A stretch of 64,000 bases of DNA. Origin: Anaerolineae bacterium. Lineage in GTDB: Bacteria > Chloroflexota > Anaerolineae > UBA4142 > SHND01. The notes under the pieces were generated by a model. The model saw nothing but the letters and a program-made list of their open reading frames with translations, was not told the DNA's origin and did not search any database. Below, piece after piece: positions 47,419-50,888 of the stretch. Location of the stretch: the NCBI GenBank assembly GCA_020851635.1, contig JADZCJ010000055.1, positions 1 to 64,000 on the forward strand, given 5' to 3'. The position numbers and the translations under genes are program-made. Every line of letters starts with the position of its first letter. The first letter of the stretch is position 1.

Positions 47419-48123
47419 TCAAGGGCAGTCCCGGTCATCCACCTGGAATTTATAACCTACCCCCGGGATGCTCACGATGTAACTCGAGACGCCGGGGGCA
47501 ACATCCAACCTTTTACGCAAACGAGAAATCGTGACCCTGACAACCTCATTATTCTGCTCTCCATCATATCCCCATACGGCGGCGAGCAAATCATGATAGC
47601 TCAGGACGATGTTGTGATTCAGCATCAGATAATTGAGCAATTCAAACTCGATGCGACTGAGCTTGACTTCCAGCCCTGCCACCACTACCTCGCGCGTTTG
47701 GCGGTCCAACATGATCTTGCCATAGACCAGCGGTTTTGCGCCGTTGCGACTCTTTTGACTTTGCGCCGCCGTCCGCCGAAGCAGCGCCTTGATGCGCGCG
47801 CGGAGCTCGCGCGGACCAAACGGCTTGACCATATAATCATCGGCGCCTTTGTATAGCGCGCTCACGATATGGTCTTCGTCACGCAAGGCGCTGAGGATCA
47901 GAATAGGCACATCGGTTGATTTGCGAATATGATCCAGCACCTCCATCCCTCCGGTGGGAGCCATGACCAGGTCGAGGATAACAAGGTCGGGCTGCTCGAG
48001 CTGGAACACCCGGAGCGTTGATTCACCGTCAAAAGAGGTTACGACCGTGTGTCCCTCGCGATATAGACCGTAGCGAATAAGGTCAACCAGGTCGCGATCA
48101 TCGTCAGCTACCAAAATTTTCAT
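47419..48123 (-). CDS. OmpR/PhoB-family response regulator
   Basis: 234 residues. The receiver domain (MKILVADDDRDLVDLI, Asp in VILDLVMAPTGG, then LSALRDED and YMVKPFGPREL) keeps all catalytic residues. A winged-helix Trans_reg_C domain follows from about 135 (RIEFELLNYLMLNHNIVLSY, VVRVTISRLRKRLD, IVSIPGVGYKF). The ATG at 48121-48123 has a GGAG site 6 nt upstream; the longer frame overlaps the kinase gene. It is 19 bp downstream of the histidine kinase gene and is its likely partner. Its DNA targets may be the paired GTTAC sites described in the findings. Confidence 0.9.
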   Translation of the reverse strand: MKILVADDDRDLVDLIRYGLYREGHTVVTSFDGESTLRVFQLEQPDLVILDLVMAPTGGMEVLDHIRKSTDVPILILSALRDEDHIVSALYKGADDYMVKPFGPRELRARIKALLRRTAAQSQKSRNGAKPLVYGKIMLDRQTREVVVAGLEVKLSRIEFELLNYLMLNHNIVLSYHDLLAAVWGYDGEQNNEVVRVTISRLRKRLDVAPGVSSYIVSIPGVGYKFQVDDRDCP

Positions 48124-48142: not shown

Positions 48143-50356
48143 CTAAACTGCCAGGGGAATACTAAACCAGAAGGTTGCGCCTTGATTGGGGGCGCTCTTG
48201 ACGTCAATATTGCCGCCGTGATGTTCGATGATGGTGCGCGCGAGCGCCAACCCTAACCCAATTCCCAATCCTTCTGCTTCCACACGTTTGCCGCGATAGA
48301 ATCGTTCAAAGATCTGCGCTTGTTCTTCCGGACTGATGCCGGGTCCATGATCTGTCACTTCTGTAATCACAAATCCGTCACGCAGATAGGCAGTGACACC
48401 GATGGGTTTGGATTCACCCCCGTACTTGATTGCGTTCGTAAGCAAATTAAACATGACCAGCACGATCCGCTGCGAGTCGGCAATGACCGGACACGGGGAC
48501 GGCAGATCAATCGCCAAATCAATTTCCGGCAATTTGGCATAGAGAAACGGCTGAAATTGATTGAGCGCTGTATTGAGAATCTTTTTAAAGTCGGTCCGAG
48601 AGGACCGCAGGACAAAGCGTCCGGATTGCACACTGCCGCTGTCAAGCAAGCTTTCGACAAAGAACTGGAATTGAATGAGCGTTCGCTGCATGTTAGCCAG
48701 CAGCGCCAGCTGCTGCTCAAAATTCCGGTCTCGGAACGCTTCATCCAGCAAATCAATGCCGGTCCTCAATTTTGCGACCGGCGTCCGCAGTTCATGTGAA
48801 GCGTACAACATGAACTCGTCTCGCGAACGCCGCAATTCGTCCTCGTACGATTGGTCCAAAAAGATGTGCACCAGACCGGTCGAGCCGTTGCTGGCAGCGA
48901 GGGGGCTGGAAATGAGCGACACTTTTTTGCGGGTGGCTGTCAAAATGCCCGAGTACGCAATGGTTGGCAGAGCCGCGGGTGTGTCTATGCCCCCTTCTAC
49001 GTCGGCCGCAGCATCCAATGAAAGGGGAGCGCCGGCGGATGAATTTATGGCGAGAAACAAGGATTGCCACGATCTGCCTTCGAGTTCTGTTTTTGTCTGC
49101 TTGAGCAGCGCCTCGGCGGCCGGATTCAGCCACACAATTCTCTGGTGCGCATCCGTCTGCATGGCTGCAATGCCCATTGAATTGATAATTCGGGCATATT
49201 CGCGTTCTTGATTCTGGGTATTCTCGAACGCGATCAAATTCTTGCCGCGCACGCGATCCAATTCACCGGCAACATCTCCGATTTCATCGGGACGATCCAG
49301 GAGAATCCGTGTCTTCCAGTCCCCCTCTGACAGACGACGTAATGCGCCCCGCAGTTCCAGCAACCCCGAATCAAAACCCTTGAGATAGTTGAACCCGATC
49401 ACGCCAAAAGCGACAATGACAAGGAAATAGGCAAACGCAATCGGATTGAGCAGCTGCCCCGCCGCTTGCACTGGAGTGATCGGAGGAACGCCAAGACCGA
49501 GCATGACGATCATGGGATCGCCGGGCGACGAAATAGGGGCGAACTTGAACTCGAAAGCGCCCAGAGAAGTATTCAGACTCAAGACATCTGTGGCTTGAGG
49601 TTGACGATATGCCTTTGCCAACTCGGCGTGCGAGAGCTGCCCCATCAAGGGCACACCCTCGCTATCGTCCAATTCTGAGAATACAGTCTGATTGTCCGCG
49701 AGAACAATCACCTGCTGATCCGGCTGAATGACGGGGATTTGGTCAACAAAGCCGTCTTGAAGAAAAAACCCGACGGCGAGAGCGCCCAACAGCTCGTCAG
49801 TGGTGTTGTCATACACCGGCAGGATCAAAACCTGTCGAGCATGTCCCGACGAGTCCACATCAAGCACGAGCGCTTCACGTTCCGAGAGCGCGCGGTCCAG
49901 CGCCGCGGCGACCCGCTCCTGATCGGGGGACATTCCTCCGCTGCCGGCGGATTGGGCAAGGATTTGCTTTTGGGTATCCCAAAACGTGGCAAAAAAGCTG
50001 TCATCCCACGCCTGGACGGATGTCAGAAGCGAATTCAGTCCCTTGCGGTCCCGGGCACGCACATACATTGCCAGAGTACCCGAGCGCGCGAGCGAGTCCG
50101 CGATTACGCGCAGCTGCGCTTTTCGGTCATGAAATATCCCCGCTGCCTGATTTAACGCCTTGTCCAGATTCTGATGAGTTGAACGACGTTCGACAATGGT
50201 TTCGTTTACAGCGAGCGCAAGTGCAATGACCAACGGGACTACAATCGCGAGTACGAGCCAAATCCAAGCCAAATAACCTATCTTGTACCGTTTTCGCTTG
50301 CGACGATCCGGCTGTGACAGTGCAAGTGTCCTTTTATCCCACGACACAGATGCCAT
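48143..50356 (-). CDS. Membrane sensor histidine kinase (external sensor, HAMP, PAS, HisKA, HATPase)
   Basis: 737 residues: membrane helix about 29-50; external domain about 51-300 of Cache-like kind (ending VLGLGVPPITP); second helix about 305-325; HAMP about 327-375; PAS about 385-500. HisKA has His521 in FMLYASHELRTPVAKLR, and the ATPase domain has the N box (NLLTNAIKYGG) and G boxes (DHGPGIS, GLGIGLGLALARTI). It is a complete kinase pairing with the regulator just downstream. A strong AAGGGGGG site precedes the ATG at 50354-50356. A leader RNA with an intrinsic terminator lies upstream, so its expression is probably controlled by attenuation. Confidence 0.9.
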   Translation of the reverse strand: MASVSWDKRTLALSQPDRRKRKRYKIGYLAWIWLVLAIVVPLVIALALAVNETIVERRSTHQNLDKALNQAAGIFHDRKAQLRVIADSLARSGTLAMYVRARDRKGLNSLLTSVQAWDDSFFATFWDTQKQILAQSAGSGGMSPDQERVAAALDRALSEREALVLDVDSSGHARQVLILPVYDNTTDELLGALAVGFFLQDGFVDQIPVIQPDQQVIVLADNQTVFSELDDSEGVPLMGQLSHAELAKAYRQPQATDVLSLNTSLGAFEFKFAPISSPGDPMIVMLGLGVPPITPVQAAGQLLNPIAFAYFLVIVAFGVIGFNYLKGFDSGLLELRGALRRLSEGDWKTRILLDRPDEIGDVAGELDRVRGKNLIAFENTQNQEREYARIINSMGIAAMQTDAHQRIVWLNPAAEALLKQTKTELEGRSWQSLFLAINSSAGAPLSLDAAADVEGGIDTPAALPTIAYSGILTATRKKVSLISSPLAASNGSTGLVHIFLDQSYEDELRRSRDEFMLYASHELRTPVAKLRTGIDLLDEAFRDRNFEQQLALLANMQRTLIQFQFFVESLLDSGSVQSGRFVLRSSRTDFKKILNTALNQFQPFLYAKLPEIDLAIDLPSPCPVIADSQRIVLVMFNLLTNAIKYGGESKPIGVTAYLRDGFVITEVTDHGPGISPEEQAQIFERFYRGKRVEAEGLGIGLGLALARTIIEHHGGNIDVKSAPNQGATFWFSIPLAV

Positions 50357-50634
50357 AGCCCCCCTTCCGAATCAGAAACCTGCAATTCTGGGCGAATTGC
50401 AGCAGAAATGTCTCGAAACAGATCAGCCGAAAAAAAATAAAAACCGGCCATCCACAAGGCAGGATTGGTCGGTCTCACAGTAGCTCGGTGCGGACTTGTA
50501 CCCCTGGGAGTGTGACCGGGGAAGAGGGGTTGCCACACTTCATTGCTCCCAATCGGCTATTGTTTTGAAAATGACGGTTGCCGGAGTGCAGCAAAAAGCA
50601 CATTTTTGCTTGTTTTGCTGCTCGTCATCTTGTA
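50357..50634 (-). ncRNA. Structured leader RNA upstream of the histidine kinase, possible riboswitch/attenuator
   Basis: The region between the promoter (50641-50669) and the kinase start holds no gene. In transcript order it has a strong hairpin GCAGCAAAA/TTTTGCTGC (50588-50596 with 50613-50621). A folded core at about 50460-50545 follows, with GTGTG/CACAC and CCCC/GGGG pairings, and then an intrinsic terminator (50430-50472). In the core, CAAGTCCG and CTACTGTGA resemble two short conserved segments of cobalamin riboswitches, but spacing and the rest do not match. I call it a leader attenuator of unknown ligand. Confidence 0.5.
50430..50472 (-). terminator. Intrinsic terminator in the histidine kinase leader
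   Basis: On the minus strand CCGACCAATCC (50462-50472) pairs with GGATGGCCGG (50444-50453) with one bulge and one mismatch. A T-tract broken by a single A follows (50430-50443). It lies 74 bp upstream of the kinase ATG, inside its transcript, where it can only serve as an attenuator. Confidence 0.7.
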
Positions 50635-50640
50635 ACGGTC

Positions 50641-50669
50641 ATCTTATCAATAAAGCTATCGGGTGTCAA
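50641..50669 (-). promoter_or_regulatory. Sigma-70-type promoter for the histidine kinase/response regulator genes
   Basis: On the minus strand a perfect -35 TTGACA (50664-50669) is followed after exactly 17 bp by TAAGAT (50641-50646). Initiation would be near 50634, giving a leader of about 280 nt. Upstream, at 50699-50715, GTTAC occurs twice as a direct repeat 11 bp apart, the spacing usual for OmpR-family sites, which suggests autoregulation. Confidence 0.6.
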
Positions 50670-50888
50670 GCAAGATTGCGATATATTTGTTTCAGCTGTG
50701 TAACTCTCGCGTAACATCGCTGTTAATCCTGCCCGGACTATATCTCATTCCGAATGCGACCGCCTTGCCTATTTTCTGCGCTGTTGGAAAAATAGTTACA
50801 CCTTGTGCCCGGGACCCTGAGAAAAGTCGCCAATACGGCGCGGTTTTCTCCCGCAATCAAACTAAACCGCCTCGCATTTTGAGATAGT
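50670..50888. promoter_or_regulatory. Upstream control region of the kinase genes and 3' end of the ribulokinase transcript
   Basis: No gene is seen. It contains the GTTAC direct repeat (50699-50715). A hairpin GCGGTTT/AAACCGC at about 50838-50870 lies after the ribulokinase stop at 50889 and might end that transcript, although no T-run follows directly. Confidence 0.35.

Follow-up and report, generated by a model that had tools for sequence, protein, structure and literature searches.

The leader of a histidine kinase gene in an Anaerolineae genome is, with a probability that we put at roughly 0.86, a c-di-GMP-II / c-di-GMP-II-GAG riboswitch that acts as a transcriptional ON switch. It lies within a 64,000-nucleotide stretch of DNA that we call the window. 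The basis for this reading is computational and consists of the homology of the aptamer, its covarying helices (including a pseudoknot), the overlap between aptamer and terminator, and the recurrence of the expression platform. Going by homology only, the ligand is most likely cyclic di-GMP (c-di-GMP), rather than cobalamin, and the switch would act in the ON direction in the cell. Counting against this reading are a score below the Rfam gathering threshold, the omission of the site by the RF01786 model, a 3-nt linker, a GACCG core, the lack of aptamers directly before the relatives of the kinase in the stretches searched, and a weaker nested fold. A first-pass annotation, made from the sequence, had proposed a riboswitch-type attenuator over this two-component system; the proposal is supported by matches to two covariance models (RF03169 and R2), which also point to a family that can be named, the c-di-GMP-II clan.

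Architecture of the leader

The kinase start codon is located at position 50356, on the minus strand like all leader elements. The first-pass annotation had listed a promoter, a hairpin, a compact folded core, a terminator with a T-tract and the kinase ATG, and we located all of them at precise coordinates and in that order. The sigma-70-type promoter (TTGACA-17-TAAGAT, 50641–50669) had 10 of 12 matches in the promoter scan. On its own it is weak evidence, as chance alone would yield 0.9 equally good sites in the 2 kb that were scanned. The same pattern recurs at other aptamers: a 10-of-12 promoter occurred at most 160 nt upstream of 24 of 86 aptamers, compared with 18 of 1720 mononucleotide shuffles.

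The predicted transcript opens with a hairpin found by folding (50568–50631), outside the aptamer, with an outer stem of 9 bp and an energy of about −22 kcal/mol. It might act as a stabiliser of the 5′ end; that it is a mobile or repeated element was ruled out by its single copy in the genome. The compact core corresponds to the c-di-GMP-II-type aptamer match (50559–50457). Between the expression platform and the ribosome-binding site, both the hairpin scan and folding detected a 9-bp hairpin, CTGCAATTC..GAATTGCAG (50380–50402), and the sequence contains a Shine-Dalgarno-like motif, called strong, GGAAGGGGGG, at 50359–50368.

Folding of the whole leader did little better than expected by chance (z −1.57, with 13 of 200 shuffles folding at least as well), so that the significance of the leader comes from covariance models rather than from folding energy. 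The minimum-energy fold also contained a 10-bp pairing (duplex energy −20.3 kcal/mol) between the ribosome-binding site region (50372–50357, including GGAAGGGGGG) and the aptamer segment CCCCUCUUCC (50530–50519). We do not claim it as a second layer of control, as 72 of 1000 shuffles did equally well.

Identification of a divergent c-di-GMP-II-type aptamer

An Infernal scan against Rfam, the check proposed by the first-pass annotation, was carried out with permissive filters on the 601 bases from 50200 to 50800. The leader core (50559–50457, minus strand) matched RF03169 (c-di-GMP-II-GAG) with 33.9 bits and an E-value of 9.4e-5, and the alignment covered the full length of the model (positions 1–86 of 86). 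The score is below the gathering threshold of 40 bits and, by this cut-off, the copy would not be listed as RF03169. Indeed, no family, cobalamin included, matched anywhere in the 64-kb window under the curated Rfam gathering thresholds. The c-di-GMP-II model RF01786, searched against the genome to which the window belongs, reported four of the five sites found there with RF03169, none of them over its cut-off, and the window copy was absent.

We also built a covariance model, R2, trained on 41 aptamers from the same genome and its relatives and excluding the window copy. The leader core was its sole match in the 64-kb window (31.7 bits, E 3e-7) and had an E-value of 2.8e-5 genome-wide. The training set of R2 had been gathered with RF03169 and the two models are hence not fully independent. 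By structure and homology, the segment 50559–50457 of the minus strand is most likely a divergent c-di-GMP-II-type aptamer that belongs to the c-di-GMP-II clan.

Conserved helices and a compensated pseudoknot

The predicted fold of the window copy contains, in clan order, P1 with 6 bp (GAUUGG at 50549–50554 with CCAAUC at 50468–50463), P2 with 3 bp (AGC at 50545–50547 with GCU at 50484–50482) and P3 with 6 bp (GUGUGG at 50533–50538 with CCGCAC at 50493–50488). P1, obtained by folding this copy, is conserved in relatives, and the fold and the terminator analysis both place its 3′ strand in the 5′ arm of the terminator as well. An extra 6-bp stem, P4 (ACCCCU at 50525–50530 with AGGGGU at 50505–50500), is a peripheral extension that closes the pseudoknot loop and is missing in short-loop relatives. 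The pseudoknot forms five of five pairs between UCACA in the hairpin loop (50511–50515) and UGUGA in the strand that precedes the ACCGACC core (50475–50479); the latter is followed by GACCGACC and its last two bases are shared with the terminator 5′ arm. The linker between P2 and the pseudoknot measures 3 nt in the window copy, compared with 4 nt at 86 of 88 sites and 5 nt at one, a regularity among the copies of this order in our dataset and not a published criterion.

Homologs of the kinase could not serve for judging the conservation of the core. At an E-value of 1e-60, relatives of the kinase were absent from five genomes of the same genus, four (32–41% identical) were found elsewhere in the order, and a scan of genome contigs retrieved distant kinases only (best segments 25–45% identical). 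Relatives of the kinase-regulator pair exist in G013, G008 and G018. The RNA model detected no aptamer directly upstream of the kinase relatives in the stretches searched; for the G010 kinase, cut by the end of its contig, the leader lies outside the data. Conservation was therefore judged on homologous aptamers elsewhere. We assembled 88 of 90 matches, dropping a partial one (G024:C33) and one at a contig end (G043:C102); this set does not comprise four further matches from the 20-genome search described below nor the matches found by R2 only. An alignment (A1) was made with 42 of the 88 sites, namely 38 of the 46 shortest (eight near-copies from G030 were dropped), the window copy and three longer ones, and a second one (A4) was identical but lacked the window copy.

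In the 42-aptamer alignment that contains the window copy, 88.5% of the cells of P1, P2, P3 and the pseudoknot were paired, and 186 cells carried changes on both sides. The controls gave 72.4% when the 3′ letters were shuffled and 30–38% (maximum 38.3%) when the partners were slid by one to three columns. The pseudoknot helix reached 97.6% pairing, with double changes at three of its five pairs, although its pairing had not been used in building or scoring the models. In the full set, 78 of the 88 sites have all five pseudoknot pairs, an approximate count since the strands were picked by an automatic rule that made a few mis-picks (e.g., G014_C57, G001_C139 and G030_C5_2588). The combination found in the window occurs at no other site, the commonest form being ACGCC/GGCGU (52 of 88). 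Since UCACA/UGUGA departs from this prevailing form by compensatory change, the preservation of the helix argues for selection on the pseudoknot.

A predicted expression platform built on the aptamer core

Folding identified an intrinsic terminator (50440–50476; 5′ arm 50476–50462, 3′ arm 50453–50440) with an energy of −15.2 kcal/mol (range −13.9 to −15.6 kcal/mol). It is followed by the T-rich, 14-nt tract TTTTTATTTTTTTT (50430–50443), which shares bases with the end of the 3′ arm. A simple terminator scan had omitted this hairpin because its bulged stem breaks the scan pattern. The 5′ arm takes in the final two pseudoknot-strand bases, the GACCGACC core and the 3′ strand of P1. As it overlaps both the pseudoknot strand (50479–50475) and the P1 strand (50468–50463), aptamer and terminator are mutually exclusive. 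This platform recurs in the other copies: a hairpin of −10 kcal/mol or better running from the core to a T-tract was present at 68 of the 88 sites, compared with 167 of 1760 shuffled downstream sequences.

Nearest-neighbour energies, which include neither the ligand nor a pseudoknot term, were −29.8 kcal/mol for the terminator state and −18.8 kcal/mol for the nested aptamer fold. This gap would fit an ON switch whose default state is OFF, but a decayed aptamer would look the same. The leader might thus be a former riboswitch whose terminator has become constitutive or leaks at a fixed level. The window copy does have the lowest RF03169 score of the five in its genome and a linker one base below the usual length. 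Nonetheless, the compensatory change leaves its pseudoknot fully paired, and P1, P3, the terminator, the T-tract, the promoter and the ribosome-binding site are all intact, so that we regard decay as unlikely.

Under the riboswitch reading, RNA polymerase would start near 50641 and make the 5′ hairpin and then the aptamer. Bound c-di-GMP would hold P1 and the pseudoknot in place and make the strand GAGACCGACCAAUCC unavailable for the terminator, allowing read-through into the kinase and response regulator genes. With no ligand, GAGACCGACCAAUCC would pair with the GGAUGGCCGGUUUUU strand and transcription would stop at the T-tract. High c-di-GMP would then lead to more of the two-component system at the head of the exopolysaccharide-type cluster. 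The same genome encodes four GGDEF domains, one of them with an intact GGEEF motif, and two HD-GYP-type domains, which makes both the production and the removal of c-di-GMP plausible; we found no EAL phosphodiesterases in it.

Unusual core features and the nature of the ligand

Besides its unique 3-nt linker, the window copy carries GACCG, in place of AACCG, directly following the pseudoknot. Among the 88 sites, G precedes ACCG in six (window copy included) and A in 81, the remaining one being ATCCG. All four further copies of the genome have AACCG, so that two aptamer subtypes coexist there, the standard one and the GACCG copy with the shortened linker. In the class II crystal structure, the position before ACCG is a point of contact with the ligand.

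A related riboswitch with an altered ligand preference, for instance for a mixed cyclic dinucleotide, would account for both peculiarities. It has a parallel in class I, where variants bind c-AMP-GMP through one base change (PMC9481103). However, G at this position is the printed consensus of RF03169 itself (GAGACC) and the base is thus not special to the window; moreover, nothing in the gene contexts suggests a different dinucleotide, the open reading frames (ORFs) scanned downstream of the five other GACCG copies having no Pfam family. We consider such a related riboswitch rather improbable. In its broader form, a change of either ligand (e.g., to a mixed cyclic dinucleotide) or affinity in the window copy is also doubtful. 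If true, it would mean that the two-component system in front of the exopolysaccharide cluster answers to another signal or concentration than the one to which the standard copies tie the surface-protein genes. The remaining interest of this leader lies in the divergent linker and core base found beside standard copies in one genome.

That the leader is instead an attenuator controlled by a protein or another ligand such as cobalamin, with a coincidental c-di-GMP-II match, is highly improbable: the Rfam score is indeed under the cut-off, but R2, built without the window copy, recovers the core at E 3e-7, scoring made no use of the pseudoknot pairing or of the expression platform that the copies share, and no cobalamin family appeared up to E 10.

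The first-pass annotation had noticed a resemblance to the cobalamin riboswitch, which did not hold up. The next matches to other Rfam families in 50200–50800, searched up to E 10, had E-values of 3.3 or worse and included no cobalamin family. The likeness is confined to two short words, both of which are part of other elements in the c-di-GMP-II fold, namely the 3′ side of the P4/P3 arm (CAAGTCCG) and the linker together with the 3′ strand of the pseudoknot (CTACTGTGA).

Genes downstream of the probable riboswitch

The controlled gene (48143–50356, minus strand) encodes a 737-aa sensor histidine kinase in which the domain scan recognised HAMP, PAS, HisKA and HATPase_c. Only 19 nt past its stop codon begins the gene of an OmpR-type response regulator (Response_reg and Trans_reg_C domains; 47419–48123, minus strand), and both are presumably carried on one transcript. 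Further downstream on the same strand, the domain scan detected a receiver-GAF protein, a NusG-like protein and a GHMP kinase. The NusG-like protein (46016–45411), possibly an antiterminator of the RfaH type, comes directly after the receiver-GAF protein and heads the glycan cluster. Beyond the GHMP kinase, the ORFs of a putative acyltransferase, glycosyltransferases and an ABC exporter pair can be read as an exopolysaccharide-type locus. We infer that the kinase-regulator pair controls these neighbouring glycan genes.

In this arrangement, an RNA that senses the messenger of the sessile lifestyle would govern a two-component system heading an exopolysaccharide-type cluster, in an order with the riboswitch in every genome examined. 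It offers a testable chain from c-di-GMP through the riboswitch, and then the kinase and regulator, to the glycan.

Comparison with known c-di-GMP riboswitches

Class II c-di-GMP riboswitches of C. difficile are transcriptional ON switches (PMC11477304). One of them, Cdi-2-2, increases transcription of CmrRST, a signalling system (PMC8844915). The first-pass annotation had expected a ligand-controlled switch over a two-component system to be new; in view of cmrRST, a published case of a class II riboswitch over such an operon (PMC8844915), the novelty is limited to this copy, its oddities and its locus. The two systems share a class II c-di-GMP riboswitch (RF01786 in Clostridioides difficile) that raises, or in the window would raise, a two-component-type system. 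They differ in that the cmr locus additionally has a DNA switch subject to phase variation, with two regulators placed around its kinase, and in that RF01786 does not report the window copy. Within a limited literature collection, searched by titles and abstract openings, we found no c-di-GMP-II-GAG riboswitch reported before a histidine kinase. As far as these searches show, what is new is the window copy with its oddities, together with its position ahead of an exopolysaccharide-type locus.

The window copy shares with RF03169 and the other copies of the order a full-length match, P1, P2 and P3, the 3′ core GAGACCGACC as in the model consensus, the pseudoknot and the terminator platform based on ACCGACC. 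In contrast, its score (33.9 vs. 40 bits), the extra P4, the 3-nt linker and the unique pseudoknot sequence set it apart, and it controls a histidine kinase instead of the surface or secreted proteins that are commoner in the order. It is thus an ordinary device for the order, yet an odd-looking copy placed before a signalling gene that adjoins a sugar-polymer cluster.

Other copies in the genome and the order

The genome contains five RF03169 matches, the window copy (the lowest-scoring) and four others with 49.6, 49.2, 41.5 and 39.8 bits; three of the five are over the cut-off. The two best ones form a tandem pair (G000:C92:1539–1643 and 1771–1874) that precedes a gene with a SpaA_4 domain. 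Tandem c-di-GMP-II arrangements are known (PMC9481103). All 20 genomes of the order examined had RF03169 matches (78 in total), compared with none of 14 control genomes, and 24 of 60 genomes of relatives carried copies. Twelve of the 78 matches in the order were below the Rfam cut-off, and the data suggest that the RF03169 threshold misses real copies in this order.

Surface and secreted proteins were the commoner targets in the order, judging from Pfam annotation of 70 ORFs picked by length and distance in two sets of 36 and 34, with some sites outside this tally: DUF11 (3 of 36 and 3 of 34), Big_1 (3 of 36 and 2 of 34), GEVED (3 of 36), thioester domain (2 of 36) and SpaA (2 of 34). Class II copies also lie ahead of surface proteins in C. 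difficile and its relatives (PMC9481103 and PMC11477304). Signalling targets recur too: the copy at G010:C118:17075 is directly followed by a GAF-HisKA_3 kinase, a 7TM kinase lies 543 nt beyond the G019:C155 copy, and receiver-domain proteins come after the copies G008:C32 and G017:C128.

In G013, a radical SAM/SPASM gene comes after the kinase-regulator pair related to that of the window (locus L129, G013:C644:1500–7500), and next in line is a c-di-GMP-II-type aptamer (L129:5847–5948). The same radical SAM family sits behind aptamers in G008 and G009. In three aptamers (G003:C51:33784 and G005:C205:26728 and 30398), the pseudoknot loop is extended on its 3′ side by long insertions, with match lengths of 165–173 nt vs. 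the usual 83–117 nt, indicating that the fold tolerates a large extra arm. Finally, G030, a genome of another family, contains 11 copies in two short stretches (C5:818–2949 and C34:20901–22887), with up to three in a row.
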